Of a stretch of 39,470 nucleotides of DNA, positions 14,049-38,578 are shown one piece after another. Source of the DNA: a virus; the IMG/VR virus record IMGVR_UViG_3300036799_000147, positions 1-39,470 of that record; one strand, given 5' to 3'. How positions within the stretch are numbered: position 1 is the first letter of the stretch; the number at the start of each line of letters is the position of its first letter. The notes beneath the pieces are model-generated. The model ran no database searches. It was not told the DNA's origin and saw only the letters and a list, made by a program, of their open reading frames with translations. Both the position numbers and the translations under genes were made by a program.

Positions 14049-15193
14049 GCCTTCGCCTCGAGCGCGTCCAGCCGCGTGTTGGTCTGGGCCACGAATTGCT
14101 TGAGCGCCTCAAAGACGATCGCCCCCACGCGCGAGTAATCCATGCCGACGGCCTTGCCATCGTCGTTGGTCTCCACGATGGCCGGTACGTGCGGCAGCCA
14201 GTGATCAGCCACAAAGCCGATCTGGCCCACATTGCCGTCCGTGTGGTCGTAGCTGACGCCGTGCAGGTCGTCGTTGAGCACGATCGCCAGCGGGTCGTCC
14301 AGCGGCAGGATGTTGGTCTTGAACTCGATCGAGCTCGCGCTGATCCAGGTATTCGAAAAGCCCTTGCCGAAGTTGGCCGGCGAGTTGGGGAGCTCGATGC
14401 CGTACGTCGCCGGGAAGACGCCCTGTGCGCCGAGCGAGCCCTGGATGACCACCGACGGATACAGGCTCAGGTAGCCCGGCGAGCCGGTGCGGGCGACGTA
14501 CACGTTGGAATCGCCGAACATGATCTGACCGTTGGCAGGCAGCGTCAGCGGCGTGGTCAGCTTGTCGCCGCTGACCGTGGCGGCGCCGATATTGCCGCCC
14601 TGGACCTGACCGGTGCCGATGTCCGCGCTGGTGATCGTGCCATTGGAGATGTTGCCGCTGGTGATCGTCTCGGCAGCGATGTTGCCGCCGCCGATCGTGC
14701 CTGGTGCGATGTTGCCGCCAGCGATCGTGCTCGCCGCGATGTCGCTGCCGGTGATCGTGCCGTTGGAAATGTTGGCGCTGGTGATCGTCTCGTTGCCGAT
14801 GTCGGTGCCAGTGATCGAACCGTCGGCGATCTTGGACGAGTTGACCGCCCCGTCGGTTAGCTGGGTTGTACCCACCGCGCCGTTGATGATGTTGGCGGTG
14901 CCCACCGCGCCAGCCGCTAGCTGCGCGTTGCCAACTGCTCCGGCTGCCAGTTTGGCCGTACTGACGGCCCCGTCAGCTAGCTGCGTCGTGCCGATCGAAC
15001 CCGGTGCGATCGCCGCCGCGGTGACCACACCCGGTGCGATGCGCGCCACGGGTAGCCCCAGACCAGCACCGTGGGTGTGGTTGTCATGCGCCAGTCCCAA
15101 CCCCTCGAGGTCTTCTTTCTTGAACGGGTCGGTCGGCGCGGTGGCGTACGGATACGGGTACACCGTGTGGTTGGTGGCGTTCTGTCGGCTCAT
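14045..15193 (-). CDS. Tail fibre/spike with GTI-type repeats and S74-like chaperone domain
   Basis: The 382-residue protein has an N-terminal linker (TVYPYPYATAPTDPF...). Residues about 55-215 hold short repeats of the type G(T/S)(I/V)...A(I/Q)(L/I), as in ITSANISNGTITGSD, expected to form a trimeric beta-helix. A beta-rich part follows, then a C-terminal S74-type chaperone domain beginning SIEFKTNILPL (with the Ser and Lys used in self-cleavage) and ending in a coiled coil. A ribosome site GGAGGTGATCC precedes it. It would bind host receptors. Confidence 0.83.
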   Translation of the reverse strand: MSRQNATNHTVYPYPYATAPTDPFKKEDLEGLGLAHDNHTHGAGLGLPVARIAPGVVTAAAIAPGSIGTTQLADGAVSTAKLAAGAVGNAQLAAGAVGTANIINGAVGTTQLTDGAVNSSKIADGSITGTDIGNETITSANISNGTITGSDIAASTIAGGNIAPGTIGGGNIAAETITSGNISNGTITSADIGTGQVQGGNIGAATVSGDKLTTPLTLPANGQIMFGDSNVYVARTGSPGYLSLYPSVVIQGSLGAQGVFPATYGIELPNSPANFGKGFSNTWISASSIEFKTNILPLDDPLAIVLNDDLHGVSYDHTDGNVGQIGFVADHWLPHVPAIVETNDDGKAVGMDYSRVGAIVFEALKQFVAQTNTRLDALEAKA

Positions 15194-18168: not shown

Positions 18169-18461
18169 CAGATCTGGAATCCACCAACTCGCGCTACGAA
18201 CGTCCTGAAGTCGTACGCCGGCGTCTGCTCGGCCTCGCCGTAGAAGACACTTGCCAGTTTGCCCATGTCACCTGAGGCGCTCTTGAGCAGCGGCACGTCA
18301 GTTGTCGCGTCGTAGCCGAGAGCCACCAGATCCGCTTCGGTCAGCGTGAGCAAGTAATTGTTCAGGTTGGTCGCGTTGCGCGTCCACGTCTGGATCTGCT
18401 GCGACAACTGCCCAATCTGCATGTCCAGGGTTGCTTTGGTAGTGATGTTGCCGACGCTCAT
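18168..18461 (-). CDS. Small virion-region protein
   Basis: The 97-residue protein has an N-terminal coiled-coil-like helix ([19 protein letters not shown]), then [19 protein letters not shown] and a C-terminal [16 protein letters not shown] 18461 overlaps the upstream fibre stop by ATGA, which rules out the longer frame to 18587. Probably structural; the family is unknown. Confidence 0.62.
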
Positions 18462-20146
18462 GCTGCACGCTCCTTCAGCAAGTATCTGACTGCTTCCCAC
18501 AGGAAGGGGATGACGCTGGTGTAGTACATGGCTGACGGCTCTCCGTCGGCATCCACGGAGACTGCCTCCGGCACTCTGGCGTGCCACTTGTCTGCGCTGA
18601 ACCCGTATTCCCAGCGGTGGTCCGGGTCGTCCTTGCGCTGGTAGTGCAGACCGCGCAGGCTGTCATCCAGCAACACGTCCTGCCAGCAGCCGGGATCGAT
18701 GACGGTGATGTGGTCCTTGACCTTCTCGTGTGACGTCTGGGTGTAGCCGCCAGGGGCGTTGACCGTCCAACTGGCACCAATCACCGCGCCGCCAGGTTCA
18801 CTCCACGTCTGCCCGTTGGTGGCGAAGCGAATCCCGGGCACGTTCAAGGTGTGGGTGAAAGCGAACCAACTGCCGTTCCATGTGATGTTGATGCCGCCGT
18901 TGTTCGCAAAGTAGATCGTGCCGCTGTAGAGCGTCAGATTGCCTGGATACGCGAAAAGAGCGATGCCGGTGGCATAGCCCATTGAATTGATCTGGAGGTT
19001 GACCCAGGTATCAAGGCGGATGTCATTGTCGCTGGCACCCGCGTAAATCTTGGTATTGACGTCTCCCCACATCAGATTCTGACCGCGTGGCATGACGAGG
19101 CTGCCAGTGAGAGAGGCGCTTCCAGCGACCGAGAGCGTTCCGGTGTTGACCGGAGCGTAGGTGCTGCTCGCGCCCCAAAAGAAATGCGTCCCGCCGGCTC
19201 CGGCCAGATAGAGGTTGTTGCCGCCGGAACTTGCGACGGCGTGGCCTGTGTCCCCCAGGTAGAGCGTGGCAGCGCTGATCATCAATGGTGAGACGGCAAG
19301 CTGATACTGGGTACCGTCGAAGTACAGATAGTGGTTGCCATCAGTGCCAAAGAACAGGGCACCGCTGCTCGCACCGCGCGATGCGTAGGTATCGCCAGCT
19401 TTGAGCGTGCCCGCGACATTCAGGTTGCCGGGGCCTGCCAGCGAGCCGCCGACCAGCGGCAGATACAGCGCCGCCGCCTGAGCAGGCGTCTGGTACAGCG
19501 CGTCGGCCTGGGCCTGGGTAAACGGCGTGATCCACTGGGTGTTGTAGTTGGTTGCGTCGATCTTGCTCAGGACTTGCCCAGCCGTACCCCCAGCCGCCAC
19601 GCCAGGACCGGTCGCGCCGGTAGCGCCAGGAGCTCCAGCGGTGCCCGGGTTGCCCTGCGGGCCTGTCGCACCGGTCGAGCCTGGTGGCCCGGGGACGGTA
19701 CTGGCCGCGCCAGTGGCACCGGTCGCGCCGGTGTCGCCTTTTGGGCCCTGTGAGCCAGTCGCACCGGGTGGCCCGGGTACCGTCGAATCGGCCCCCGCAG
19801 CGCCCGTGGCACCCGGTGCGCCGGCGGGACCCTGTGGGCCCGGCACGGTCGAGGCAGCGCCCGTGGCGCCTGCTGGACCCACTGCGCCTGTGGCTCCGGG
19901 AGGTCCCGTGGGACCAGGCACGGTCGAGTCGGCGCCGGGCGCGCCCTGCGGGCCCTGTGGCCCAGACGGCCCAGTCGGACCGACGGGACCTTCCCAGGCC
20001 GGCGGCGTGCTGCCAGCCAGCGGCGGTGCAGGCACCCACTCGATTGGCTCGAGCGGCGGCGCGGGTACCTGGCCGGGCTTGAGCAGCGGCGGCGCCGGCG
20101 CCTGGCCGACCTGGTTGACCGGCTCGAGCCGCGGGTTCTCGGTCAT
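18458..20146 (-). CDS. Collagen-like tail fibre with S74-type chaperone domain
   Basis: In this 562-residue protein, residues 1-50 are Pro-rich. Residues about 52-182 form a collagen-like Gly-X-Y region ([17 protein letters not shown]...) interrupted several times by the same STVPGP block, probably giving kinks. Residues 183-440 are a beta-rich receptor-binding part. The C-terminus ([14 protein letters not shown], then [16 protein letters not shown]) is an S74-like intramolecular chaperone with a Ser...Lys pair, which would trimerise and be cut off. ATG 20146 overlaps the upstream stop (ATGA). Confidence 0.88.
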
Positions 20147-20334
20147 GCGGGTGGCTGGGTCTGCACCTTCGCCTCGAGCGCTGCCACGCGGGCTACCAGC
20201 GCCAACCAATCCTCCGGCAGCACCAGCGTCGCGCGCGTACCGTCGTCCAGGCAGCAGCTATACGTGACGTGGCCGGTGTAGATCCAGTTGCCGTCGACAT
20301 GGCGATTGGCGAACGTAGTCCGCGTGTCTGTCAC
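20143..20334 (-). CDS. Hypothetical protein of the tail-fibre cluster
   Basis: A 63-residue protein, beta-rich at the N-terminus ([25 protein letters not shown]) and ending in a short helix [15 protein letters not shown]. It overlaps both neighbours by four bases. It might be a fibre base or adaptor. Unrecognised. Confidence 0.6.
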
Positions 20335-22730: not shown

Positions 22731-23585
22731 TCAGCTCGCTCCGTTGACCAGTACGCCGAAAGCGTCGCGCATCTCCTGGTGACCGTAGATCACCTCCGAA
22801 GCAAGCTTCCAGGTGAAGAAATCGATGTCGTAGAAGACGTGTGTCTTCGGCGTGCGCTGCTCGACCAGCGCCAGCGCGTCGCGGTGGAAAATCGCGCTGT
22901 TGGCCTGCCCGGCGGCCGGCTTGACCAGGTTGGTGGTGACCTTCAAGGTCAGCCCGTACATCTCGCCCAGCACACCGTTACGAACAGGCATGCTGCCTGT
23001 GCCGATGTACAGCGCGTTGCTCCAGCGGTCGAGTGCCAGCTTGGCCACCTTCTCGGCCGGAGTCATGATGAAAAAGCGATCGTCCTGCGGCACGTCGGCG
23101 TCGTCCAACAGCTTGATCGCGGCCAGCACGTTGGCATCCGAGGCCGCCGTGCCGAGGGTCCCGACGGTCTGTGAGAAGCCGGCGAAGTCGGTGGCCAGCT
23201 TGGTGTCGATGTCCTTGGCCAGCGCGTAGCCCAGCTTGCGCTGGTACTCGTTCTGGACGTCGATCTGGCTCTGGACCTTGACGATGTCCTCGATGCCGAC
23301 CGCGGCGTACGACCAGATGTTGAGCACGATGGTGACGGCCGTCTCGGCGACGGTCTCATACACAATCGCACTGTTTTCGGCCTTGGCGCGAGCCGCCAGG
23401 TTGCCGATGCTGGCCACCTTGACGCTCTTACCAACGCTGGCGTCGTCCTCGAAGCCGCGGTTGACGCTGTCGGCGATGACGAGGTTGCTCTCGGTCGCGC
23501 GCAGTACCTGCTTCGACCAGATGTCTGGCGAAAAGATGCCGTCGGCGATGGTTTTGTCGACGAACTCAGAGGCCCCAGTGGCCAT
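22731..23585 (-). CDS. Major capsid protein
   Basis: The 284-residue product shows the podovirus-type coat pattern: FSPDIWSKQVLRATESNLVI, ADSVNRGFEDDASVGKSVKV, LNIWSYAAVGIEDIVKVQSQ, KLGYALAKDIDTKLA, then domain segments ending EVIYGHQEMRDAFGVL. Size and position right after a scaffold-like gene support an HK97-fold coat protein. A GGAG lies about 10 bases before ATG 23585. Confidence 0.87.
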   Translation of the reverse strand: MATGASEFVDKTIADGIFSPDIWSKQVLRATESNLVIADSVNRGFEDDASVGKSVKVASIGNLAARAKAENSAIVYETVAETAVTIVLNIWSYAAVGIEDIVKVQSQIDVQNEYQRKLGYALAKDIDTKLATDFAGFSQTVGTLGTAASDANVLAAIKLLDDADVPQDDRFFIMTPAEKVAKLALDRWSNALYIGTGSMPVRNGVLGEMYGLTLKVTTNLVKPAAGQANSAIFHRDALALVEQRTPKTHVFYDIDFFTWKLASEVIYGHQEMRDAFGVLVNGAS

Positions 23586-24725: not shown

Positions 24726-25991
24726 CTAACTGCCGGGTCGCTTGACCGTACCGTATGTCGACGGTGCTTGAAAACCTGGCAACGTGTTCTTGATCTGCTG
24801 CTGCGCGTCGGCCGGGTCCAGCCCGTACTTCTCTTGCATGCCCTGCAGCACCAGATTCTGAGTCGTTTGCGGCGCTCTGAAGAATTGCACCGAGTCAATT
24901 TTGTTCGGGGTCGGGATGGCGTCCAGGATTTGCTGGGTGCTGGTCTGATTCGCCTGCGGGCTCTGGATGTCCTGGATCATCTGGGTCAGGTAGCCCACGC
25001 CGGCGCTCGGTGCGCCGCCCTGGCCGGCCGTGCCCAGGCCCTGGACCTGGTTGGTCTGGCCGAAGCCGGCCACCGGTTGACCCTGCAGCAGTTGATTGAG
25101 CTGACCCATGGCGGCCTGCTGCTTGAACGGGTTGGCCTGCATCTGATTGATCAGGTTGACCAGCCCGGTCTCCTGCGCGTACGCCTGCTGCTGTGCCGCC
25201 AGCGTGGTATCGCCAGCCTGCGGAGCTGCGCCAGAACCGCCGTAGAGCTGCGCGTACTGCGCCTGCGCTGCCAGTGTCTGCTGACTGCCGGGGGGCTGGC
25301 CCGTTGGACCGTACACGAACACGTTCGGATCGGTGCCACTGGCAGCCAGCTGTGGCTGCACGAAGGCCCAGTAATTGGCCGCCGCGGCGTCCGGATTGCC
25401 CCCCGCGCCCGTGAGAAATGCCTGCTTGTCGGCCGGATTGGCGCGTGCATTGAAGGCGTCGACGGCGATGTTGCGCTGCGCCGTACCCGGCGCCGTGTAG
25501 GTGCCTGTCAGGCCCGCCACCTGGGCCGCGATGTTGGCCTGCTGGTTCTGGGCTGCCAGGGTTGGCGCACCTCCGTAAGTGCCGGTGACGCCCGCCTGCG
25601 AGATACCGAAGTTCTGATTGAACTGGCGGATCTGCTCGTTGAGTTGATCCGTGCTCAGGCCGAACGTCTGATTGAACTCACGAATGGTCTCGTCCAGCGC
25701 GGCTTTGTTGCCGCTCGCCGCGGCGCCGAGCAGCTGGTTGATGCCAGCCTGCAGCTGCTGCGTCCCAGCGCCAACCGTCGTCTGCGCACCCAGCTGGGTG
25801 CCCGGCGTCGGACTGGTGCTCAGATTGGGTGTGCTGGTGAATTTCGAATCGGCCGCTTTGGCTGCGGACAGGTCGCTCGGGGTCGCGGCGTTGGCGTACG
25901 CCTGGTTGATCGCCGCGTCGGTCAGCGGGCCGTTGTAACCAGCCGCCAGGACCTGTGCCTGACGATCGGCTTGCGTCTGCGCAGCTGCCAT
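24726..25991 (-). CDS. Ala/Gln-rich internal virion protein
   Basis: A 421-residue protein of low complexity, rich in A, Q, G and N, with repeated helices (LDETIREFNQTFGLSTDQL, EQIRQFNQNFGISQAG: two related REFNQ/RQFNQ blocks). ATG 25991 overlaps the upstream stop by one base, and the longer frame to 26090 is unnecessary. Gene order after portal and two other large low-complexity proteins suggests an ejection/internal core protein. The evidence is composition and context. Confidence 0.62.
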   Translation of the reverse strand: MAAAQTQADRQAQVLAAGYNGPLTDAAINQAYANAATPSDLSAAKAADSKFTSTPNLSTSPTPGTQLGAQTTVGAGTQQLQAGINQLLGAAASGNKAALDETIREFNQTFGLSTDQLNEQIRQFNQNFGISQAGVTGTYGGAPTLAAQNQQANIAAQVAGLTGTYTAPGTAQRNIAVDAFNARANPADKQAFLTGAGGNPDAAAANYWAFVQPQLAASGTDPNVFVYGPTGQPPGSQQTLAAQAQYAQLYGGSGAAPQAGDTTLAAQQQAYAQETGLVNLINQMQANPFKQQAAMGQLNQLLQGQPVAGFGQTNQVQGLGTAGQGGAPSAGVGYLTQMIQDIQSPQANQTSTQQILDAIPTPNKIDSVQFFRAPQTTQNLVLQGMQEKYGLDPADAQQQIKNTLPGFQAPSTYGTVKRPGS

Positions 25992-27793
25992 CAGGCGGCC
26001 ACCGGCATGCCCACGGTCTGGGGTGCCATAAACGGTTGCGGCGGCGTCGGCGACATGGCCGGCGCGGTAAAGCCGCCGGGTACGCCCCACGGAGCTCCCG
26101 TATTGCTTCCGACGACCTGACCCGTGGCTGGCATGCCGGCACCGACGCCCGGATAGGCGCTGCCGTACGCGGTCCAGGGGTTGGGCGAGCTCGCTGGGCC
26201 ACCGCCCGAGATATTGATGTTGATGGCGCCCTGCGCCCCCTGAGCACCCATCGACGGCTGTGCCGAGCGCACCGGTGCCAGCAGCGCTGGATTAGCTTGC
26301 GAGGCTGCCAGACGTCCAGCGGGAGTGTCTTGAAAGCCGGCCGTGTTCATGGCAGCTGTGCTGGCCTGCGGGTTGAACGGGGTAGTCCCTGTCAGCGGCG
26401 CGGAGACCGCGCCACCGGCGCCAGCAGCTGTCGTCGGCCCACCCGTGACCTTCTGACCGGTCGCCGCCGACCACTTATCCAGCAGCAGCGACAGCGTGGC
26501 GATCGCCTTCTGGGTGACCGGATCCGCGGCATTGGATGTCGGATCCGCGGCAGCCACCATGCGCGCCGCGGCGTCGAGGGTGGCCTGACCACCGCTCAGC
26601 TCAGCCGTCCAGCCAGCCAGGCCCTGCACCAGGTTGGCGCCCAGGTCCGACGGGATCCCACCGGCCGCGCCAAAGTTCTTATTGCCCAGCGCGCTGCCCA
26701 TCAGGTTGCTGAGCGCACCGGTGGCCTGTGCTGCTCGAGTCGACAGCAGCTGCGCGCCGGCCTGCGCACCTTGAGTGGCCTGGCTTCGAGCGTTGGTCAG
26801 CAAGTTGTTGGCAGCCGTAATGGCGTTGGTCTGCGTCTGCGAGTCGGCCGTGGCCTGTGCCGCGGCAGCTGTCTGGGCTTCGACTGCCTGGTTGTGGCGT
26901 GCAGCTTCGACATTGCTGGCCGCGGTCGAAGCTGCGTTCTGCTGGTTGACGCTGAGCGTGCCCTGCGCGATCTGATTGGCCTGCTGCTGAGTCAGCCGCT
27001 CAGTGTCGATGCGCTGCTGGTTCTGGGCATCGGCGATGTTCAGGTGCTCGCGGTTGGCGACGTTCATCGCCTCGTCCTGCGCGAGTTTGATGGCTGCCTG
27101 ATCCGAGCCGGCCTGCTCGATCTTGATGCGCGCCTCGTTGATCGCCTGATTGCTGGCCGCGACCTGGGCGTTGGTCTTGGCGTTGACCAGCGCGATATCG
27201 TTCGCGGTCTGCGAGTTCTTGTTGTTGTCGCTGGCGATCTTCAGCTGGGCGTCGATCTGCTGCTGGGTCAGACCCTGGCTCTTCAGGGTCGCGTCCATCG
27301 TCGCGATCTCCTGATCGGTCATGTTCAGACCGCGCGAATCGACGTTCTTCTGTCGATTGGCTGCAGTGTCCTGCAGGTCCTTCAGGTCCTGATTGGCCTT
27401 GGCCGTGGCTGCCTGCGACGCCGCCACAGCGGCCGCAGTGGTGCTCTGGTCCTTATCGTTGGGCTTGACACCCTGCTCGACACCGGTGACGTTCCAGTCC
27501 AGCTGGTCGAGGCCGACGTTGGCAGCGTTAACGCCTTGACCCTGCGGCCGCATGGTGACCGTGCGGACTTCGCCGTTGGGCCCAAGCAGCGTCAGCTGCC
27601 AGTCGACCGAAGCACGCCCGGGTGCAGCTGTTGGCGTGCCCTGCGACGTCTTACCCGGCTGGACCAGCGAGTTGGGATCAACCGTGACGCCGTCCTTGTC
27701 GGGCTTGGGCGTCGGCACGCCGCTGATCGACCACTGCGTCGGGTCGAGCTTCAGCGCACGTAAGAACTCGTCTGGATCAGAGAAACGTGCCAT
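25991..27793 (-). CDS. Long helical Ala/Gln-rich internal virion (ejection) protein
   Basis: In this 600-residue protein, residues 1-110 are folded and Trp-containing (WSISGVPTPKP, VDWQLTLLGPNGEVRTV). Residues 110-400 are a very long, nearly uninterrupted Ala/Gln/Asn-rich helical region (QQIDAQLKIASDNNKNSQTA, NREHLNIADAQNQQRIDTE), and the C-terminus is Gly/Pro-rich. Long helical, poorly conserved proteins like this form the internal core or ejectosome of podoviruses. The frame starts in the stop of the 1,798-aa gene (TAATG, 27793). Confidence 0.65.
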   Translation of the reverse strand: MARFSDPDEFLRALKLDPTQWSISGVPTPKPDKDGVTVDPNSLVQPGKTSQGTPTAAPGRASVDWQLTLLGPNGEVRTVTMRPQGQGVNAANVGLDQLDWNVTGVEQGVKPNDKDQSTTAAAVAASQAATAKANQDLKDLQDTAANRQKNVDSRGLNMTDQEIATMDATLKSQGLTQQQIDAQLKIASDNNKNSQTANDIALVNAKTNAQVAASNQAINEARIKIEQAGSDQAAIKLAQDEAMNVANREHLNIADAQNQQRIDTERLTQQQANQIAQGTLSVNQQNAASTAASNVEAARHNQAVEAQTAAAAQATADSQTQTNAITAANNLLTNARSQATQGAQAGAQLLSTRAAQATGALSNLMGSALGNKNFGAAGGIPSDLGANLVQGLAGWTAELSGGQATLDAAARMVAAADPTSNAADPVTQKAIATLSLLLDKWSAATGQKVTGGPTTAAGAGGAVSAPLTGTTPFNPQASTAAMNTAGFQDTPAGRLAASQANPALLAPVRSAQPSMGAQGAQGAININISGGGPASSPNPWTAYGSAYPGVGAGMPATGQVVGSNTGAPWGVPGGFTAPAMSPTPPQPFMAPQTVGMPVAA

Positions 27794-30700
27794 TAGCGGC
27801 TCCCGGCGCCCACTGTACGCCCGACTACTGTCTTACCCTCGGCAACGCGCGCATTGAGCTCACCCGCAGGTGTCATGCGCTGCCACAGCGTGGCCATGTC
27901 CGGCTCGGCACTGCGCAGCTTGCTGGCCAGCATCTTGGCCTTCTGATTGTCGGTCTGGTTCTGGTACGCGGCCGAGTTGACTAGCTGACCGACGGCCTTG
28001 TCGATGGCCTGCGCGCGCTGATAGGTGAGCTCGCGCTGCTCGCTCTCATTCAGCGGGATGGTGCTACCGCGCAGGCTGACCTGCGTTGGCGCCTTGGTCG
28101 GACCAGGGATCTGATACCCCAGCCGCTGTAGCCGATTCGTCTCGGCATCCAGGTCGCTGACCGGCCGCGTCTGCATGCCCAGCAGTTCGCCAAAGCCAGC
28201 CGAGCGACGCTCTTGCGGCTCAGGCGTGGTCATGGATGGCTGAGACGGCAGCATGCCCTCGAGGCCAGGGATACGCGCCTGCTCGCGCTGCAGGAACTGC
28301 TGCCAGCCCTGATTGCTCGGATCACGCAACACCGGGTCAAACGCCGCGGTGGCCTGCGTCAACGCCGCACCGGTGGGCAGGTAGCGGTCGATGTAGCTAC
28401 CAGCCAGCGAGCCGGTCGCGCCGGCCAGATTGCCCTCGCCCACCTGGTTGAGCGTCTTGATCAGGTCCGCGGCGTAGAACTGGTTGGCCATCGTCTTGCC
28501 GATGGCGTTGTACATACTCTTGACGTAGTCGGGGTTGGGCTTCGCGCCCTCCTTGGTCAGTGCCTCATACATGGCTGCCGGCGCCGCGATTGGCAGCGCC
28601 CAGGCACCCCAGTTGGAGTAATCGAACCACTGCCCGCCGATGCGGATGCCACTGGGATGCTCCTTATCGTCAGGCCCGCGGATGTTGCCGTTGAGCACGT
28701 TGGCGATAACCGCTGTGCTGACCACGCTCTGCGTCAGGAACTCGCCCGTAGCTTCTTGCATGGCGTGCTCGTCACCCGCGCGCCAGGCTTTCGCGAACTT
28801 GATCGCTGCCAGGCTCTCGCCGACGACGGGCATGCGCTTGCCGCCGATGTTGAAGATGCGTCCTGGTACTGCGGCAAACGGCACGCCCGCGTCGAGCAAC
28901 AACCCGGCCGCCTGATGTTTGAGATCCGGCGCAGCCAGCAGCTTGTTCTTGAGCTCGCTCAGCCCCTGGCCTGGCCCTTTGCCCTCGCCGAACACCGACA
29001 GGTTGGCCATCTTCTGACCCGCGTCGTCCAGGCGTTTCTGATTAGCGCCCAGTAGCGCGCTGAGCGGCTGTCCGGGATTCTCGCGAATCAACCGCTGGCC
29101 CTCGGAGCCGGCGCCCATCGCCCAGCCCAGTGTGCGGAAAAAGTCGTCGGTAGCCCCCAGCGCGCGCAGTGCAAACCACTTGGCTGGCGTGGTGCCCTGC
29201 GCTTCGGTCATCTGCGTACGGCCGCTGCTGAGCGTCTTCGCGAAGTTGGTAAACGCGTCTGGCAGCGCCTGACCGGCCGCGCGGAGTCCAGCAATAGCTT
29301 CATCACCGTTACCCCCAGCAGCCGACACCAGCGGCGTCCTGGCGAGCTCGACCAGCTGGCTGATGATGTTGGTGGTGTGCGTCTTGATGCCCGAGAGCAG
29401 GTTGTTCTTGGTGAACGCACTGACGTTCTGCGCCAGCGTCTGCGGCGGATTGACCAGCGGCATGCCCGGCAGCGGCAGGGGATTGGCTGGCGGTCGCAGG
29501 CCACGCAGGTCGTTGTAGTTCGGACCAAGGCCGTGCTGCGCCAGCCGCAGGGCTGTACCGGGAGCGGTCGCGCCCAACACACCCGCTGCTACATCACGCG
29601 CGAAACGATCGCCAGTATGCGACTTATCTTCGTCGGACATGGTCGCTTCCTGGCTGGCCACGCCCGCTGCAGCGCCGCCCAGCTGCAATGCCAGACGCGG
29701 GTCAGCCGCCCCGCCCTGCCGGTTGGCGATGACGTTGCGAGCCTTGTCGACGCCGGTGTCGAACAGCACGTGCACGTCGTGACTGATCGGACTGCCCCGC
29801 GCGTCCGTCATCGGAACGCGCTGCCCACCGGGGTAACTGATGCCATCAAAACCAGCCGCCTTGAGCGTGTCATTAGCGAACTGCTTGTTGGTGTTGGCCA
29901 GCGCGTCATACAGGTCTTGACCAGTCGCCGTCGGACCGCTGGTGTAGCGCTCGACGTCTCGAGCCACCATCTGGTCGCGGTAGTCGTTGCTCGAATTGAG
30001 CACGTCCAGCACGGCGTTTTTGGTGTCCTGGTCGAGGGGTGCCTCGATGTTCAGCATGTGCAGGTTGGGCGTGTCCTGCAGACTGCGAGTGGTTTCATCG
30101 AAGACCTTGGGCACGTTAGTGATGTCGGGCAGCTCAACTGCCCGAACGTTCGGCCCGGAGCGCGGGTTGTACTCAGCAATCTGCTGCTGCAGATCTTGTT
30201 GCCGCTGGTTGAGCATGGAACGGCGACGGTCCGACAACCCCGGCTGCGCAAGTTGCGAAGCCACGTCCTGCAAGTCGGCCTGCAGGGCACTGAAGTCATC
30301 GGGACGTGCCTGCGCGTAGCCCGGCGATACGACACTGCCAGGTTGACGCTTGACTGAACTGCTGAGCCACGACGGACCCACTTGTTCACCCCCCTCAGCC
30401 ACTACACCGCCGGCCACTTCCGGGCTGGTGGTGGTGTAGTAGCCGGGCCCGAACAATGCTTCGGGGTCGCCAGCGCTCGCGGCGGGCTGCTCAAAATCGG
30501 CGCTGGTGCCGTGGTACACGCGCGTGACCTGCTGCTTGACCGCGGTGGCGATCTCTCTGAGCTTGTCCGTGTCGAGCGTGCCGGCTTCGTTCTTGACGAA
30601 GTCGCCGATCGGACCTTTGGCCAGGTCAGCCATGATGTCTTCGACACTCGCACGCGCCCAGCGACCAGCACCGCTGACCGCTGCTCGAGCAGCGTCTCTG

Positions 30701-33189
30701 ACCTGTGGGATGGAGCTACCCAGCGCCGCGGCCCAGCCGAATTGCGTCGCGTCATGCGTCGCCTGGAACGCCGCGCGGTCGGCCGCACGCTGTGCGGCAC
30801 TGCCTGCGAAACGTTCCTCGGCACCGATCGGGATAGCAAAGTTGGCTGCCTGGCCCAGGATGTCCGCCAGCGGCGTCGCGCCCAGCACCGGCAGGTTGAC
30901 CGTGACCGACGCGGGGATGATGCCGGCCGATTTCAGGAACGCTGACAGTGGGCCTGAAACGTCTGGCCCCTGGCTGCCAGGCGGCGGGGTCGCTGCACTG
31001 ATGCCAGCCCGAATCTCCTCAGGTAGTTGCCGGCCCGTGATCGCTTCGGCCGTGCTCACGCCCGGCATGAACGGCGACTGCTCGGTCTGCTGGCGCTGGG
31101 CTTCGGTGCTGGCGGCCTGGATGTCTTGACCGAAGTGGCCCAGGTTCTCGGGCGCCTGCTGGATGTCCTGCAGGTTCTGCCCCAGCGTGCCGCCAAGCGG
31201 GCTGGGCGCCTGGCCGGCGATGTTCGCGGCGCTTTGCGTCAGCGGGCTCTGGATGACATTGTTCGCGGCAGTCTGCAGACCGCTGAGATCCAGCGGCTGA
31301 ACGTTGGCGCGCGCCTGCTCGATCTGGGCGTTGACCTGATCGCGACGCTGCTGGCTCTGCTGCAGGTAGTCGTCGAGTTGCTTCTGCGCCGCGTCGCGGG
31401 CGGTCTGTAACTGCTTGAGTGCCTGATCGCCCTGGTCCTGCAGGCTCTGCAGCTGCGTCCGTCCAGCGTTGAGCACGTCCTGGGCCTGGCTGGCCACCTG
31501 GCCACCCTGTGCGACTGTTCTGTTGAGTGCGCTCTGAGCAGCACTGCCCGCACCTGCCAGCGCCTGCTGGCCGGCGCTCTGCAAGCCTCCAGCCGCGTCG
31601 ATTGCGGCGTTGGTCGTGCCGCCCAGACGATTCTGGATGCCCTGCACGATGGCCAGGTACTCCGGCTCGGCCGCGGTGAAGTAGCCGCCGCTCTTCAGGC
31701 CATGGACGAATGTCGGCAAGTCAATCGCGCCGACGGCGTTCTTATAGCTGCGCTGCAGCAGGTCGATCCAGGCGTTCACCGCGTCCAGTGGGCTGTCGTA
31801 CGCCGCGAATGTGGCGTTCTGGGTCGTGCCGCCGTATTCGCCCTCATGCGTCTGCATCGTCGTGCCCGGCTGACCGGCAACCGCCTTGACGCCGAACAGT
31901 TCATTGCCCGCGGCCTTGCCGTAGTTACTCTCGCTGGCGGCCATGGCCGTCACCCAGGACGGATCAATGCCCAGTTTGGTCGCCGCGTACGCCGCGTATG
32001 GGGCGAAGGATTTGGCGAAGGCCTCGGGGCTGCTCGAGTCGATCGCGCCGCCGGTGGCCGCGTTGACGGCCGTCTGAGCGCTCTGCACCGGGCCCTGGCC
32101 ACCGTTGGTGGGGACGCTCGGGTTGTCGGCGAACAACGCACCCTGCAGTTGGCCCATGCGGCCCTGCATCTGGCTGGGCGTCATCCACTCGCTGCCACCC
32201 CTGAGATCCAGCCCACTACGGCCGACATGAAAGGCGCCACTGGTCGGGTCGTACCCGTCGGCAAAAAAGTAATGGCCTGGAGTCGAAATCGTGACGGGGT
32301 TGCCTGTTTGCGCTTCCTTTGCGATCGCGTCCCAGTCAGCCCCAACGATGTGCGTCGCTACGCCGAGCTTGTCCATCAGCGCTTTCTCAGAGGTGATGCC
32401 GGCCATACCGTTCTGGCTGGTCCAGCCCACCTGCGCTGCCAGGTCAGTCGCTTCTCTGAGCGTCGGGTTGCGGCCGAACATCTGCGCGAACCTGACAGCG
32501 GCTGCCGGTCCACACGCGGCGTACGCCTCGTCCGCGGTGAGCTGTGGGTCGCCGAACTGACTGGTGCTGTCGGCCGTGCCCTGATTGCCGGTGGTGCTGA
32601 CCGCCCGATCCAGTGCTCGAGCGCCCTGGTCGACCGCGGCTCCAACGGTCTGGCCGGCGCCGGAGACGGCACCGCCGACCGCCTGTCCTGCGCTGCTGAC
32701 ACCGTTGAGCACGTTGCTGCGGGCCTGCTGCTCCCACTGATCGAACTGCTCCAGCGGCGAGGGACCTGTGCCTCCCGAGACCCCCGAGTCGACAGCAGAC
32801 GCCGCTGGAGCGCTGGGCAGTGTGCCTGACGCTGTGGTCGTCTGCGGTTGAGATTGGGACTGCGACTGGGCAAGCGTCTGCGCGCGCTGCTGAGCTTCCC
32901 AGGCATTGAACTGGTCCAACGCGCTCTGCGCTTCGGGAGCAATCGCCTGCGCGACCGGCTGCGTCACCTGGGTAGTGGTCTCAGGCGTTGACTGGACAGC
33001 GGTGTTGACCGCCGTGCCGACGTTACTGGCTGTCTGGCCGACTGCCGTGGCCGCCGTGTTGACGGCCGTGGCTGCCGTATTGGCTGCAGCCAGCGCCCTG
33101 GCGCGCGCCTCTTTTTCCCAGTTGTCAAATTGGTCCAGCGCGTTCTGGGTCGCGTCGTCCGCCAGCAGGAAGCCGCCGGGTCCGGGCAT
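27793..33189 (-). CDS. 1,798-residue multi-enzyme ejection protein (C39-like, GH73, ADP-ribosyltransferase-like domains)
   Basis: By far the longest gene. Residues 17-160 carry three copies of an LDQF-x2-WE motif. Residues about 215-350 are C39-like peptidase: C226 in ACGPAAAVRFAQ, H306 in PGHYFFADGYD. Residues about 385-525 are a GH73 glucosaminidase: E420 in AASESNYGKA, then ELFGVKA and SGGYFTAAEPEYLA. Residues 555-690 are Gln-rich coiled coil. Residues about 887-1145 resemble ART-PolyVal ADP-ribosyltransferases (RVYHGTSADFE, FGPGYYTTTSPEVA, GFDGISYPGG). The remainder (KNNLLSGIKTHTTNIISQLV onward) resembles polyvalent virion proteins. Between portal and other internal proteins, it is likely injected with the DNA. 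Confidence 0.8.
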   Translation of the reverse strand: MPGPGGFLLADDATQNALDQFDNWEKEARARALAAANTAATAVNTAATAVGQTASNVGTAVNTAVQSTPETTTQVTQPVAQAIAPEAQSALDQFNAWEAQQRAQTLAQSQSQSQPQTTTASGTLPSAPAASAVDSGVSGGTGPSPLEQFDQWEQQARSNVLNGVSSAGQAVGGAVSGAGQTVGAAVDQGARALDRAVSTTGNQGTADSTSQFGDPQLTADEAYAACGPAAAVRFAQMFGRNPTLREATDLAAQVGWTSQNGMAGITSEKALMDKLGVATHIVGADWDAIAKEAQTGNPVTISTPGHYFFADGYDPTSGAFHVGRSGLDLRGGSEWMTPSQMQGRMGQLQGALFADNPSVPTNGGQGPVQSAQTAVNAATGGAIDSSSPEAFAKSFAPYAAYAATKLGIDPSWVTAMAASESNYGKAAGNELFGVKAVAGQPGTTMQTHEGEYGGTTQNATFAAYDSPLDAVNAWIDLLQRSYKNAVGAIDLPTFVHGLKSGGYFTAAEPEYLAIVQGIQNRLGGTTNAAIDAAGGLQSAGQQALAGAGSAAQSALNRTVAQGGQVASQAQDVLNAGRTQLQSLQDQGDQALKQLQTARDAAQKQLDDYLQQSQQRRDQVNAQIEQARANVQPLDLSGLQTAANNVIQSPLTQSAANIAGQAPSPLGGTLGQNLQDIQQAPENLGHFGQDIQAASTEAQRQQTEQSPFMPGVSTAEAITGRQLPEEIRAGISAATPPPGSQGPDVSGPLSAFLKSAGIIPASVTVNLPVLGATPLADILGQAANFAIPIGAEERFAGSAAQRAADRAAFQATHDATQFGWAAALGSSIPQVRDAARAAVSGAGRWARASVEDIMADLAKGPIGDFVKNEAGTLDTDKLREIATAVKQQVTRVYHGTSADFEQPAASAGDPEALFGPGYYTTTSPEVAGGVVAEGGEQVGPSWLSSSVKRQPGSVVSPGYAQARPDDFSALQADLQDVASQLAQPGLSDRRRSMLNQRQQDLQQQIAEYNPRSGPNVRAVELPDITNVPKVFDETTRSLQDTPNLHMLNIEAPLDQDTKNAVLDVLNSSNDYRDQMVARDVERYTSGPTATGQDLYDALANTNKQFANDTLKAAGFDGISYPGGQRVPMTDARGSPISHDVHVLFDTGVDKARNVIANRQGGAADPRLALQLGGAAAGVASQEATMSDEDKSHTGDRFARDVAAGVLGATAPGTALRLAQHGLGPNYNDLRGLRPPANPLPLPGMPLVNPPQTLAQNVSAFTKNNLLSGIKTHTTNIISQLVELARTPLVSAAGGNGDEAIAGLRAAGQALPDAFTNFAKTLSSGRTQMTEAQGTTPAKWFALRALGATDDFFRTLGWAMGAGSEGQRLIRENPGQPLSALLGANQKRLDDAGQKMANLSVFGEGKGPGQGLSELKNKLLAAPDLKHQAAGLLLDAGVPFAAVPGRIFNIGGKRMPVVGESLAAIKFAKAWRAGDEHAMQEATGEFLTQSVVSTAVIANVLNGNIRGPDDKEHPSGIRIGGQWFDYSNWGAWALPIAAPAAMYEALTKEGAKPNPDYVKSMYNAIGKTMANQFYAADLIKTLNQVGEGNLAGATGSLAGSYIDRYLPTGAALTQATAAFDPVLRDPSNQGWQQFLQREQARIPGLEGMLPSQPSMTTPEPQERRSAGFGELLGMQTRPVSDLDAETNRLQRLGYQIPGPTKAPTQVSLRGSTIPLNESEQRELTYQRAQAIDKAVGQLVNSAAYQNQTDNQKAKMLASKLRSAEPDMATLWQRMTPAGELNARVAEGKTVVGRTVGAGSR

Positions 33190-33191
33190 GA

Positions 33192-33716
33192 CTACAGGCC
33201 TGGTGGCAGCGTTGGCGGCGGCTGCGGCGTCGGTGGCGCGGCCTGCTGCTGTTGCGCCGCAGCGAGAGCCGCCTGCACCAGCGCCGGATCAAGCGGACCA
33301 CCGCTGGGCAGTGAGGGTGCAGGCTGAATCGGTGGCGCAGCTGCAGGCGGCGGTGCGAGCGACGGCACCGGCGGCGGCAGCGCCGCGAGCGGGGTGGCGG
33401 CTTCGATCGGATTCTGGCCGGCTGGCGGCTGCAGCGTCGGCGGCAGGTTGTCGGGGTGCACCACTCCAATGCTCTGCGCGATGCGCATGAACTGCTGTGG
33501 GTCGCGCTGGGCTTCGGTACCGAGGTACTCGCGGTCCTGCGCCAGGAACGCCTGGCGATAGCGCTGCTCAAGGGTGGCCTCGCTGACGTGGGCAATGTCT
33601 GGCTCGCGAGCGTCCGGGCTCTGGCCGAACAGCTGGTTGCCAATCACCTCGGCGTCGCGGTTGACCTCCTCGGTGATTTGATCCCGCAGCAGTGCGACTT
33701 CGTTCTGGCCAGGCAT
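33192..33716 (-). CDS. Hypothetical virion-region protein with Pro-rich tail
   Basis: A 174-residue protein. The N-terminal 80 residues are helical and charged (LLRDQITEEVNRDAEVIGNQ, LEQRYRQAFLAQDREYLG). The rest is Pro/Ala/Gln-rich and disordered. It ends just before the giant gene. It may be a portal-associated or core-assembly protein. Unrecognised. Confidence 0.62.
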   Translation of the reverse strand: MPGQNEVALLRDQITEEVNRDAEVIGNQLFGQSPDAREPDIAHVSEATLEQRYRQAFLAQDREYLGTEAQRDPQQFMRIAQSIGVVHPDNLPPTLQPPAGQNPIEAATPLAALPPPVPSLAPPPAAAPPIQPAPSLPSGGPLDPALVQAALAAAQQQQAAPPTPQPPPTLPPGL

Positions 33717-33922: not shown

Positions 33923-35902
33923 TCAGTACCGAATGCTCTGCTGCGCTGCTGGCAAGCCCCCGGCCGGCACCCCCGTGGCACTCCCAGCGGCTGCCATGAC
34001 TTGCGGACCCGGTGGCGGCTGCACGCCAGCACCGTTGGGCGCGGCCGCCAGCGCCCCGAGATCAGGCACGTTCGGCTGACCTTCAAACACGCCGGGTGCC
34101 GGCGCGCCCTGCGGCGTCGGCTGGGCCTGACTGGCCAGGATGCCGTTCTGCGCCAGGTCGCTGGCTTGCTGCGCGAGCTGCAGGATGTCGCCGCGGCCGG
34201 CGAACATGAACACCTGCGAGTCGAGCCACTTCTGGTACTGCGGCGTCTGCCGAATCCGATCGCGCTCCTTTGAGCGGCGGATCTCGTCCGGGTTGTCGCC
34301 CAGGTACTCGACCGCCTCATCGCTACCCCACGTACCGGCCGCCAGCCGCTCGTGCGCGTAGCGGGCCCGCATCATGTCGTCGGTCGGCAGCTGCTGCTGC
34401 ACCTCCCACTGGATGCGCACTGGCCGCTCGAAGTCTTTCGGGGCCAGGCCGATATAGCCGTCCTGGCCCAGCTGGTTGTCGTTCTCGCCCGCCGAGTAGC
34501 CGACGTAGATCTTCTCTTTGACCTTGTAGCGGGCCAGGTCCCACAGCTTCTCGGTCTGACCCTTGAGCAGCGTCTGCAGTCCGTTGCTGACCGGCGCGAC
34601 GCGGGTTCTCGAGTAGCTCAGCACCTGGCTGATGGCAAAGCCGGCGCCCTCCATGCCGCCGAGCGTGGTCACCTTGGGGCTCTCCAGCTGCGCAATGGCG
34701 GTGTCGACCAGGCTCATGTGTTTTTCCAATGTGCTCGGGTCGGGGTACTCGATGCGCGCGAGCTGGCGACCAGGGCCGTTGTTGATGATCTCGCCCGGCA
34801 GTGGCCCCGGATCCCGCTCGCGCGGCTTGCCATCGTTGCCGATGATCGGCGCGGCGCTCGAGTCGCTGAATGACTGCAATGGGCTGAGCAGATCGCGAGC
34901 GACATATTGCGCATGCATCGCGCGCAGGTACTGGCGGTACTTCACTAACCAGAGCTTGGTCTGGGAGATGCCCCAGCCGACCTTCCGGTTCCGCCAGTAG
35001 GACATCCACAAACCTGGGCCGAAGTCGTAGGGCACGCCAAACGGGTAGCCGTGCTCGAACTGCTTGACGATCGCCGCGGTCGGGCTGCCCTTGTAGTTGG
35101 TGCCGGCCACCGACCAGGTCACCCAGCGCTCGTCCCAGTGCTCGTGCATCGTGACGGCGTACGGCAGCGTGCGCGGGTTGTTCTCAGCCTGGGGTCGGCC
35201 GAGCTCCTCGGGCACGATGTTGCCGTCGGGGTCCAGCCCGAGACGGTAGCGCCGCAGCGTCGAGCGGAGAGGACGCTCGGTGACTTCGAGCACCTCGCAC
35301 AGCGTGCCGTACGAGTAGACCGGGTAAATGCTGCGCGGGTCGACGTACTGCCAGGCGAACGGCGGGCCCGAGATCTTCTTGGCATCCTCGGTGGCGCGGT
35401 CGTAGCTGGCATACGCCTCGGTGGTGTCGTCCGGACTGGGGGGGTCGAGCGAGTAGCGCAGGTCCCAGGCGTCGCGCACGTACAGGATCTTGCTCCACGC
35501 CCCGCCGTCGTTGAGCGCGCTGTCGGTGCACTGAGACATCGTGTCCTGGCCTGGCTCGCGCGTGCCGCACTCCCACAACACCTCCTCGGTCCAGTGCTCG
35601 CGTAGGCTGGCGTTGGTCTGCGCCGTGTCGCCCTCGCCGGCCTTGAGCGTGAGTTTCGGGCGCTCCATGGTCATAATCGCCGTCTGCTGGAACGCCTCCT
35701 CGGTGACGTCCGGGTCGCGCGGATCGACGTGGACCAGGACGTAGCGCTGGTCGGCGCCTTCCATGGCTGGCACCCGCATTTCGCGCTGCCGGCGCGCGTC
35801 ATCCAGCTGGCGGTCGTCGTCCAGGTAGAGATCGCCGAGCTCACTCGCCAGCGAGTTCAGGTACTCGGCCGTGGGTGGTTTGAGGCTGGTGTCGACGGCC
35901 AC
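33923..35902 (-). CDS. Portal protein
   Basis: In this 659-residue protein, the N-terminal half is rich in charged helices with DPRSIYPVYSYGTLCEV and WGISQTKLWLVKYRQYLRAM, then GEIINNGPGRQLARIEYPDP and a long stem-like helix region. The C-terminus is disordered and Pro/Ala-rich. Size and position between TerL/prim-pol and the head genes fit a large podovirus portal (crown and barrel). It starts with GTG 35902, sharing a base with the prim-pol stop (TAGTG). Confidence 0.78.
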   Translation of the reverse strand: MAVDTSLKPPTAEYLNSLASELGDLYLDDDRQLDDARRQREMRVPAMEGADQRYVLVHVDPRDPDVTEEAFQQTAIMTMERPKLTLKAGEGDTAQTNASLREHWTEEVLWECGTREPGQDTMSQCTDSALNDGGAWSKILYVRDAWDLRYSLDPPSPDDTTEAYASYDRATEDAKKISGPPFAWQYVDPRSIYPVYSYGTLCEVLEVTERPLRSTLRRYRLGLDPDGNIVPEELGRPQAENNPRTLPYAVTMHEHWDERWVTWSVAGTNYKGSPTAAIVKQFEHGYPFGVPYDFGPGLWMSYWRNRKVGWGISQTKLWLVKYRQYLRAMHAQYVARDLLSPLQSFSDSSAAPIIGNDGKPRERDPGPLPGEIINNGPGRQLARIEYPDPSTLEKHMSLVDTAIAQLESPKVTTLGGMEGAGFAISQVLSYSRTRVAPVSNGLQTLLKGQTEKLWDLARYKVKEKIYVGYSAGENDNQLGQDGYIGLAPKDFERPVRIQWEVQQQLPTDDMMRARYAHERLAAGTWGSDEAVEYLGDNPDEIRRSKERDRIRQTPQYQKWLDSQVFMFAGRGDILQLAQQASDLAQNGILASQAQPTPQGAPAPGVFEGQPNVPDLGALAAAPNGAGVQPPPGPQVMAAAGSATGVPAGGLPAAQQSIRY

Positions 35903-36558
35903 TAGCGCATGCCCTGTTGGAGAAAACGCTGCCAGGTGTCGTACAGCCGCGCGCTCGAGCGCACATCGGTCGGCGTGCCCGTCACGTGCTGGCCGGTGAC
36001 GGTCAGAAACCGTTTGCGGGTGTACATCTCAACCCAGTCGCGCCGGCGGCGGCCCTCGGGCAACAGGCCGCGTACGAACACGCGCAGGCCGTCACGCCCG
36101 GGCGTCCGCTCGGTGTAACTGTTGAGATCGCGCAGGATGCGCTCGGCGTCGGCGCGGTGCTCTGAGACGTGGTCGAGGTCCACGCCCACGATGCCCCAGC
36201 GCTCGTCCAGCGCGAAACTGATGCCATCCCAGCCACCGGGCAGGGCGCTGACCGGTGCATCGTGATACGCACGGTACGCCTCCTCGAACGAGCGCCAGGT
36301 CTCGGCGTCACTCGGCTCGGCCTTCTGGGGTGGGTCGGTGTCGGGAATGTACGGCGGCTTGCTCCATCGATCGTTGTCGTACTCGTAGCGCCAGCACGCC
36401 CAGGCGCGGTGATAGCGCAGCTGGCCGGGGATCTGGGCAGGCACGACGCCGAGCGGGCCCGCGTCGGGTGGGGGCTTCTGCGGCGCGCGCGCCTTCGGTG
36501 TCTGGAACTGCTCCATCCAGCGCGGACCCGCCGCGCTCTCACGGGTGGTCGGCCTCAC
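35902..36558 (-). CDS. Stand-alone primase-polymerase (prim-pol, NrS-1-like)
   Basis: The 218-residue protein has the prim-pol order: WACWRYEYDNDRWSKPPYIP, FEEAYRAYHDA, GISFALDERWGIVGVDLDHV with the metal-binding D127/D129, SYTERTPGRDGLRVFVRG, and EMYTRKRFLTVTG. It resembles the catalytic domain of phage NrS-1-type polymerases, which both prime and extend DNA. There is no helicase domain, and no other DNA polymerase or helicase is evident in the genome, so this enzyme could prime for host machinery. It is unusually placed between terL and portal, away from the replication operon. Confidence 0.83.
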   Translation of the reverse strand: MRPTTRESAAGPRWMEQFQTPKARAPQKPPPDAGPLGVVPAQIPGQLRYHRAWACWRYEYDNDRWSKPPYIPDTDPPQKAEPSDAETWRSFEEAYRAYHDAPVSALPGGWDGISFALDERWGIVGVDLDHVSEHRADAERILRDLNSYTERTPGRDGLRVFVRGLLPEGRRRRDWVEMYTRKRFLTVTGQHVTGTPTDVRSSARLYDTWQRFLQQGMR

Positions 36559-36951: not shown

Positions 36952-38241
36952 TCACCGGCTGAACGCATAGCTCGAGCGCGTCGGTGCTGAATCGGTCGCC
37001 GCGCCCTGCCACGCCAGCGCCAACGCAATCACCGTGTCGTCGTGCAGCCCCGGCGGCGCCGCGTAGCGGACCATGCCCGTCTGGGTCATGCTGGACTCGA
37101 ACGCCTGCAGCTCGCCCGTCTGCACCTTGTCATCCAGCAGCGTCACATCGCCGCGCTCGATCGCCAGTGACAGTGCCTGGATGACCGCGGCCTTGGTGGC
37201 GTTGGTGCTGGTCCAGGCCTGCAGCGGCAGCGCCGGCCGCGGGCCCTCGACCAGCGTCTGGTAGCCGCGCTGCAAGCGCTCAACCAATGGCCCACCCATG
37301 CTGTTGGCCTCGGCGACGATGAGCCGCGGGTGGTACGCGCGGGCCCAACGGTGCAACCGCTCGGTCTGGAAGTCGTAGTCGATCTGGTTGAAGCGGTCGA
37401 TGGCGACCTGCTCGCGGGTTGTGGCATCCAGGATGCTAAAGACCGTGAAGTCCAGGGTGCGCGCCCAATCCACTCCAATGACGTATTGGTGAAAGCGCTC
37501 CGGTGGCCGGCGTTGGAGGCGGGCCACCGCCTTGACGCCACGGAACACACCGGCGCCCTCGATCTCCAGGAACTGCGCCAGGTACTCCTGCGCGAACACG
37601 CGCTCGGGCGTGATGCGCCGCGCCGCCTCGATTTCCTCTGGCCGAATGTAGGGACTCGCCGACGACGGCAGCTGCCACGCCATCCACTCCGCTTCGAGCG
37701 GATCCATTCCCAGCTGGAACAGCCGATGGAAATAGTTCAGGCCCTTGGGCGTCGACAGGAACCACGCGTCACCAGCTAGCACGCTCAGCGTTGGTCGGAG
37801 TGAGGCCTGCCAGACTCGCTCCAGGTCCCGCACCATCGCGGCCTCGTCGATGACGATCCGTTCGTAGCGCCGGCCGCGGCCAGCGTCCGGGTCGTCGAGC
37901 GACCAGCAGTCCACGGTGCCGCCGCCGGACACCTCGATGCGGTGCTGTTGCTCGCTCTTGGCAACAGTGACCGGCTCGAGCAGATCGCGCAGCGAACGCC
38001 ACACCTGGTCGAGGTACTTGTAGGTCGGCGCGAACCATGCGCACGCCATGCCGTCGGACGCACCGCGTGCCACGCGCTCGACGCCGAGTGTGGTTTTGCC
38101 CATCTGGCGACCGCACACCGCGACATTGAAGCGCCGCGCCTCAGCCACCATCTGCTGCTGCGCCTGATGCAGCGTCGGCAGGTTCCGGGAGTCCAGGCGT
38201 AGTGTTGTCGCTGTCGACGGGGCGGAATCCGGCGAGAACAC
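36952..38241 (-). CDS. terL: Terminase large subunit
   Basis: TerL cuts and packages DNA with ATP energy. Visible with numbering from GTG 38241: Walker A CGRQMGKTT (about 43-51), Walker B ERIVIDEAAM (132-133 acid pair), the motif FLSTPKGLNYFH, and a RuvC-type nuclease with D258 (VIGVDWART), E311 (VAEANSMG) and D401/D402 (GLHDDTVIALALAW). It is complete. The start is uncertain: GTG 38241 or ATG 38151 are both compatible, and homologues' LPTLHQAQ block favours 38241. It overlaps the TerS 3' end. Confidence 0.95.
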   Translation of the reverse strand: MFSPDSAPSTATTLRLDSRNLPTLHQAQQQMVAEARRFNVAVCGRQMGKTTLGVERVARGASDGMACAWFAPTYKYLDQVWRSLRDLLEPVTVAKSEQQHRIEVSGGGTVDCWSLDDPDAGRGRRYERIVIDEAAMVRDLERVWQASLRPTLSVLAGDAWFLSTPKGLNYFHRLFQLGMDPLEAEWMAWQLPSSASPYIRPEEIEAARRITPERVFAQEYLAQFLEIEGAGVFRGVKAVARLQRRPPERFHQYVIGVDWARTLDFTVFSILDATTREQVAIDRFNQIDYDFQTERLHRWARAYHPRLIVAEANSMGGPLVERLQRGYQTLVEGPRPALPLQAWTSTNATKAAVIQALSLAIERGDVTLLDDKVQTGELQAFESSMTQTGMVRYAAPPGLHDDTVIALALAWQGAATDSAPTRSSYAFSR

Positions 38242-38578
38242 GAATGAGCGTGTCGCGCTCGGCGACCACGAGCTCGGCAAGGTCGGCAGCGGATTGTTTT
38301 TCAAGCCACTCTGCGCGACTTGCTGCCTGAAGCTGAACACGTAGCGCCTGGACGTGGTCGGCGACGAGGTCATACAGCAGCTCCGCGACGGTGTCGGGAT
38401 CGCGCGCGCGTTGGCGGGTTGCAACCGTCGCAACTGGCGCGGTGGTTGCAACCCAGCGCGAGACGAGCCCTTTGTTGAGTTTGAACTGCGCCGCGACCTG
38501 GGCGATCGTCGTGCCGGCGAGCACCGCGGCCACGGCCTGGGCGCGCAGCTCGGGCGAATGCGGGACGCCGCGCGGCAT
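38141..38578 (-). CDS. terS: Terminase small subunit (HTH)
   Basis: A 145-residue protein. Residues 1-45 form an HTH resembling those of transposase/TerS proteins (SPELRAQAVAAVLAGTTIAQ, VAAQFKLNKGLVSRWV). The middle is helical for oligomerisation (TVAELLYDLVADHVQALRVQ) and the end is Gly/Ala-rich. Directly upstream of and overlapping terL, so it should recognise the packaging site. It begins one base after the stop of the upstream gene. Confidence 0.8.
   Translation of the reverse strand: MPRGVPHSPELRAQAVAAVLAGTTIAQVAAQFKLNKGLVSRWVATTAPVATVATRQRARDPDTVAELLYDLVADHVQALRVQLQAASRAEWLEKQSAADLAELVVAERDTLIRVLAGFRPVDSDNTTPGLPEPADAASGAAADGG

Follow-up and report, generated by a model that had tools for sequence, protein, structure and literature searches.

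The locus and its genes

The window analysed here, by which we mean the whole stretch of DNA under study, is the 39,470-base virus record IMGVR_UViG_3300036799_000147, with a GC content of 65.6%. Along its minus strand the genes run from the terminase large subunit, TerL (36952..38451; PHROG 2, E 1.7e-34), through a 218-aa primase-like protein lying between terminase and portal (35902-36558; PHROG E 5e-32), a portal-like protein (33923..35902) and a small protein (33192..33716) to the giant protein of 1798 aa (27793..33189), which is followed by a 600-aa Ala/Gln-rich protein (25991..27793), a 454-aa Gln/Ala-rich protein of uncertain start codon (24726..26090), a 305-aa protein, the major capsid protein, MCP (22731..23585; PHROG 267, E 1.9e-38), and finally short proteins and fibres. 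The portal-like protein upstream of the giant and the small protein directly upstream of it are, respectively, 63% and 45% identical in the related loci L003 and L005; L005 also has, in the same place, a copy of the primase-like protein that is 55% identical. The position and composition of the product of 33923..35902 suggest that it is the portal, and the two Ala/Gln-rich proteins, recognised by their composition and likewise found downstream of the giant in relatives, are candidate partner ejection proteins.

By tblastn the MCP is distantly related to podovirus capsids, the matches including Pelagibacter phage HTVC026P, roseophage CRP-1 and phages of Anabaena and Phormidium, and no tape measure, major tail or tail tube gene was recognised in the window. 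The podovirus-like assignment, as well as that of the portal, rests on position and weak matches and is to be taken as probable. An integrase (8830-10137) suggests that the phage is temperate. Both a collagen-like fibre (18458-20209, minus strand) and a second tail fibre (14045-15193, minus strand) end in weak matches to the S74 intramolecular chaperone.

The region 27793-33189 holds a single stop-free frame on the minus strand, with an ATG start and encoding all 1,798 residues, and the plus strand carries stops in the same register; we treat the plus-strand frames opposite the giant as by-products of the high GC content. The giant is not a chance frame, since about 100 loci encode syntenic homologues and dN/dS in its C39-like and ADP-ribosyltransferase (ART)-fold domains is well below 1. 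The initial annotation had proposed, from the letters of the DNA, a 1,798-residue protein within a virion region, and the frame, the limits given for its domains and the setting, with a portal upstream, the MCP downstream and two Ala/Gln-rich proteins alongside, are all borne out here.

A family of giants between portal and capsid genes

A search of IMG/VR yielded 148 matches to the C39-like domain, from which 80 loci were kept, and in all about 100 loci, some of them overlapping on one contig, encode homologues of the giant in the same synteny. These giants range from 1,274 to 2,990 aa, with the C39-like domain near the N-terminus in all but a few truncated loci. Wherever the neighbours were recognisable, the portal gene lay upstream of the giant (82/82 loci), as did TerL (40/40), and the MCP gene lay downstream (26/26), so that the order TerL, portal, giant, two helical proteins and MCP is family-wide. 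An uncultivated, apparently podovirus-like family therefore carries the giant between portal and MCP. A tblastn search of 50,697 records of named phages found no relative of the giant, and 84,980 genomes of bacteria and archaea, scanned for patterns, likewise returned neither the giant nor the TerL, an absence that is weak evidence because these scans use short peptide patterns.

Architecture of the giant protein

The giant begins with an Ala/Gln/Ser/Thr-rich region (residues 1-204; 32578..33189), which is alike only in L022. This is followed by the C39-like cysteine peptidase domain (205-361; 32107..32577), a GH73 glucosaminidase domain (396-520; 31630..32004), a Gln/Ala-rich linker region conserved with L022 only (540-880; 30550..31572), the ART-fold domain (888-1159; 29713..30528), delimited by its model, fold matches and alignment, and a conserved helical C-terminal domain (1204-1798; 27796..29580). 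The peptidase-like and GH73 domains claimed by the initial annotation both lie above their Pfam cut-offs.

Peptidase_C39_2 (PF13529) matches residues 220-320 with E 2.8e-6; its cut-off of 24 bits is exceeded both in the whole protein (28.4) and by the domain taken by itself (31.1). Of 39 non-redundant relatives, 37 also hit this family (E <= 0.01), and the catalytic Cys and His, C226 and H306 in the window, are invariant in all 39. The identity of the C39-like domain to that of the window is 70-84% in nearly all relatives tested and 53% in L085. Seven phages share no more than 24-27% portal identity with the window and yet keep 73-84% identity in this domain, with dN of 0.14-0.26 and dS of 1.2-3.1. 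Such saturation of synonymous sites means that this conservation reflects constraint, and recent transfer as its cause is ruled out by the divergence of those sites. The C39-like domain is thus a nearly invariant, constrained hub under strong purifying selection. It is predicted from its sequence to be proteolytic, and a PDB sequence search with it returned nothing significant. As a separate observation, L004 (IMGVR_UViG_3300036857_000706, 2-620) and also L065 contain an intein-like LAGLIDADG segment clipped by the contig end, which in L004 ends ...KITWCGN immediately ahead of the catalytic Cys in the C39-like domain; inteins are expected in active sites.

The neighbouring glucosaminidase domain (PF01832; E 5.8e-13; 50 bits, the cut-off being 30.2) has its catalytic Glu at E420, where SESNYGK aligns with ETGWGK of FlgJ, and FlgJ structures align over residues 389-513 of the giant. 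The wall cutter varies across the family: in many relatives an SLT domain precedes the C39-like domain, in others GH73 precedes it, and GH73 follows it in the window, L036 and L048, this role being taken by other sequence in L022. The wall cutter is therefore an exchangeable cassette beside the hub, with a predicted role in wall cutting.

The C-terminal domain is common to many members, as seen in an alignment of 32 relatives, and its model (1204-1798) is helical (pLDDT 84.4, pTM 0.79). The initial annotation had described a helical tail resembling those of polyvalent proteins, and the helical part of this description holds; as to the resemblance, the tail of the window's own giant has no match to a Pfam LPD family, and in the relatives L002, L003 and L004 a stretch that overlaps the common C-terminal part scores above the LPD38 cut-off. 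A fold search of PDB chains with the C-terminal model gave no confident match; those to polytopic membrane proteins (such as AmtB and MATE transporters, top Z 5.8) are weak, and we take them as uninformative. Since a hydropathy scan of the giant picked out a single borderline segment, at 757-775, and nothing within the C-terminal domain, we claim no membrane role. Homology of this domain to ORF26 of Anabaena phage A-4L was likewise considered and received no support from an HHalign comparison. Given these results, a role of the domain in a channel would be by analogy only.

Fold and putative active site of the ART domain

From residue 890 onwards, Pfam gives two matches that fall short of their cut-offs, DUF3990 (E 6e-4) and ART-PolyVal (E 0.13); for the domain alone, ART-PolyVal (PF18760) scores 18.3 bits against a curated cut-off of 31.2. 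Because such sub-threshold scores make an ART only suggestive from sequence, we turned to structure prediction and built an AlphaFold2 model of residues 882-1196 from an alignment of 27 homologues. The model, with a mean pLDDT of 79.7 and a core above 90, has the ART fold, as the initial annotation had supposed in placing an ART-PolyVal-like domain at residues 887-1145. Its best PDB match lies at residues 1418-1597 of chain B of 9k3a, the pre-ejectosome of cyanophage A4, where 148 residues align with an rmsd of 3.7 and a Z of 9.1 (Foldseek E 6e-3, probability 0.99). Other ART structures were matched with Z values that, being below 8, are weak by themselves: the catalytic domain of diphtheria toxin (1dtp, 6.2), the Albireti toxin (7ri3, 5.6) and tankyrase 2 (6tg4, 5.6). 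The remaining PDB matches listed were helical hairpins, covering residues 81-132 only. In a viral fold library the named matches include phage proteins labelled 'ART-PolyVal-like' and 'large polyvalent protein associated', and profile searches of PDB sequences that started from the ART alignments gave nothing beyond chance matches to ABCF1 and BIN2.

Six residues, H893, Y918, Y958, N1014, R1016 and H1137, are present in 27/27 ART homologues, and most dN/dS values among the homologous ART domains lie at 0.2-0.4. With a His on strand 1 and a Tyr on strand 2, the domain is assigned by its sequence motifs to the H-Y type. The third catalytic position appears to be the invariant His1137, at which strand 5 of the model starts, replacing the usual strand-5 Glu/Asp to give a putative H-Y-H arrangement, a reading made by eye from the motif alignment and not from coordinates. 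The Tox-ART-HYD2, or polyvalent, ART clade has an Asp in strand 5; here an Asp at 1138, next to this His, occurs in 6/27 homologues (the window and 5/26 others), the register of strand 5 not being fixed. HHalign of the ART domain against A-4L ORF27 gave a good score but aligned strand 5 out of register. Since the usual acidic residue is out of place, the domain may be altered as an enzyme or weakly active, and its transferase activity seems less certain than the initial annotation implied.

Exchange in the effector slot

The ART domain is present in 15/82 homologues. It is absent from L022, the nearest relative (portal 84% identical), which aligns with the window over residues 7-891 and 1160-1798, and the junction left by this absence is clean, the flanks TAVK.Q.TRV and GGAAAGVASQEATMSD being conserved. 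In L003 and L019, whose portals are 97.6% identical, the place that the ART has in L003 is taken in L019 by some 630 residues of unrelated sequence, beyond which the two giants are 90% identical. Likewise, L107 and L076 differ in the presence or absence of the ART at 94.8% portal identity. Mapped onto a 52-row portal tree, the presence or absence of the ART requires 8 changes, a count that may be one too high because L058 has a partial ART match, and at least 7 are forced by well-supported branches. All of these changes fall within one of two portal groups, between which the portals share only about 25% identity, so that the deep split of the tree is unreliable. A GNAT acetyltransferase occurs in three giants without an ART (L017, L031 and L044). 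The effector slot is thus exchangeable, holding an ART, a GNAT, unrelated sequence or nothing. Being optional, the ART is not the core function of the giant, a point that the initial annotation missed; the conserved core is the peptidase-like domain.

Two giants carry long stretches of sequence without a Pfam match. Residues 889-1518 of the L019 giant (L019:11720-13609), in the effector slot, are a candidate unknown effector. In the 2,990-aa giant of L078 (L078:10472-15109) some 1,546 residues without a match lie between the C39-like and ART domains; the L078 record, at 60.5 kb, is larger than its relatives.

Proposed function

We consider that the giant is probably an ejected internal virion protein of a podovirus-like phage, belonging to the polyvalent class, in which the hub and the slots work as follows. 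The protein would be packaged within the head, close to the portal, and would exit through the short tail ahead of, or together with, the DNA. The wall-cutter slot, occupied by GH73 here and by an SLT transglycosylase in many relatives, would open the peptidoglycan. The C39-like peptidase would cleave the giant into separate working parts or, otherwise, a conserved substrate in the host or its wall, and the helical C-terminal domain may help to form or anchor a passage for the DNA. The effector slot would carry a modifying enzyme, here the H-Y-type ART, into the cytoplasm before the onset of phage gene expression. What the comparison shows is the anatomy, the synteny, the ART fold at the level of a model, the conservation and the exchange at the two slots, whereas the packaging, injection and catalysis so envisaged are inferred. 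Ejection is rendered plausible by the solved phage pre-ejectosome, a domain of which is the best fold match of the ART, and by analogy with the internal protein gp16 of T7, which has a wall-cutting domain (PMC8954989). Going further, we tentatively suggest that the giant could be a delivery chassis, in which the C39 hub and the helical tail hold two exchangeable slots and the hub peptidase frees the loaded effector, as a phage counterpart of the cassette exchange of polymorphic toxins; we would not put this at even odds.

The alternative that fares best also has the giant ejected, with the C39-like domain acting as a wall enzyme that cuts cross-links beside the glycosidase, in which case the giant would not process itself and the ART would remain attached to it. 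That the C39-like domain always adjoins a wall glycosidase is in keeping with this, as is the M23 peptidase, of a type typical of cross-link cleavage, in the internal protein ORF28 of A-4L, and the extreme conservation of the domain would fit a chemically constant substrate. However, PF13529 is not restricted to wall enzymes, the C39-like domain does not share the free exchange seen for the glycosidase, and a self-processing hub would be expected to show equally strong purifying selection. We regard this alternative as a serious possibility, if one that we would not back.

In the self-processing or effector-delivering giant that we favour, the ART-fold domain would modify a host target. It could instead be a degenerate or structural core module, a binder of NAD or ADP-ribose, or a NAD hydrolase, as might be supposed from the missing strand-5 Glu/Asp, the Pfam score below cut-off and the related fold inside a packed pre-ejectosome. 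Yet the 27 homologues, although diverged, all keep H893, Y918, N1014, R1016 and H1137, dN/dS is low across the domain, and its presence in some giants and absence from others fits an optional effector better than a structural element. Some mono-ARTs of the PARP family, moreover, function without the Glu. We therefore think it rather unlikely that the domain is not a transferase. Least likely, and in our judgement improbable, is that the giant is an ordinary structural protein, scaffold- or tape-measure-like, whose enzymatic domains aid entry only and deliver nothing to the cytoplasm: it has Ala/Gln-rich linkers, sits among assembly genes, and tape measures and internal proteins often contain wall hydrolases, but it is placed between portal and MCP and not after a tail tube gene, none being recognised, its length of 1274 to 2990 aa across relatives is unlike that of a ruler, and ART and GNAT domains have no obvious use outside the cytoplasm.

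Comparison with known systems

The class of polyvalent proteins, giant phage proteins that join wall hydrolases, peptidases, ARTs and GNATs, and for which packaging and injection with an Alt-like role have been proposed, was described by Iyer et al. 2017 (PMC5512222). The giant, with its C39-like, GH73 and ART-fold domains, has the two or more biochemically disparate domains that define this class; like its members it is a huge polypeptide combining a wall hydrolase, a peptidase and an ART or GNAT, and LPD38 occurs in its relatives. It differs in that the C39-like domain is an invariant hub around which the neighbouring enzymes are swapped, and in that its ART falls below the PF18760 cut-off and seems to be devoid of the strand-5 Asp. 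What is new is, first, a papain-like peptidase of C39 type as a constrained hub, the peptidases listed in 2017 belonging to four superfamilies (zincin, assemblin-like, DD and LonC), none of them papain-like or C39 (PMC5512222); second, the wall cutter and the effector in swappable slots around this hub; and third, an ART whose third catalytic position appears, from the alignment, to be an invariant His, not Glu/Asp. If the H-Y-H arrangement is true, it prompts the question of what mechanism serves an ART in which the customary acidic residue is missing. The family offers some 80 natural variants, in which close relatives differ by one candidate injected effector amid nearly identical virion genes, and this makes the injected-effector role proposed for polyvalent proteins testable by comparison. 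The unknown cassettes in the effector slot are likewise places in which to seek new host-modifying enzymes.

Among individual systems, the pre-ejectosome of phages A4 and A-4L resembles the giant in that one of the large internal proteins of these short-tailed phages carries an ART-fold domain. The numbering of 9k3a chain B fits ORF27 of Anabaena phage A-4L (KF356198), with YHGT at 1425-1428 and GSGTY ending at 1448, and ORF27 has a weak PF18760 match in the same motif region. It is annotated as 'tail protein', its ART-like domain (1425-1600) having been missed by a whole-protein Pfam scan. Unlike the window, A-4L has three separate large proteins after the tail tubular genes; it carries M23 in ORF28, no C39 or GH73 being recognised by Pfam, and by motif alignment it has Asp1586 where the family of the giant appears to have His.

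A second relation is to the vRNAP of Roseovarius Plymouth podovirus 1 (CBX87992), an N4-like giant virion protein that provides the prototype polyvalent ART (PMC5512222); it scores 41 bits, above the PF18760 cut-off, which the family of the giant does not reach, and has an RNA polymerase in place of C39/GH73. T7 gp16 is a very large ejection protein with a wall transglycosylase domain (PMC8954989); it shares with the giant the nature of an internal protein with a wall-cutting domain, and unlike the giant it has no peptidase or ART. Among PDB chains the C-terminal domain of the giant had no confident fold match that would tie it to the core of T7-type ejectosome proteins. FlgJ is a flagellar protein with GH73, whereas the GH73 of the giant is embedded in a phage protein.

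The initial annotation had compared the giant with T4 Alt and had seen in it a built-in effector of similar logic. The comparison holds in concept, Alt being an injected ART that modifies host proteins; the idea of an injected multi-domain ART is, however, already published for the polyvalent class (PMC5512222) and is therefore not new. The ART of Alt belongs to the R-S-E clade (PMC5512222) and forms a separate protein, whereas that of the giant is of H-Y type and fused to other domains, so that the giant is not a member of the Alt family.
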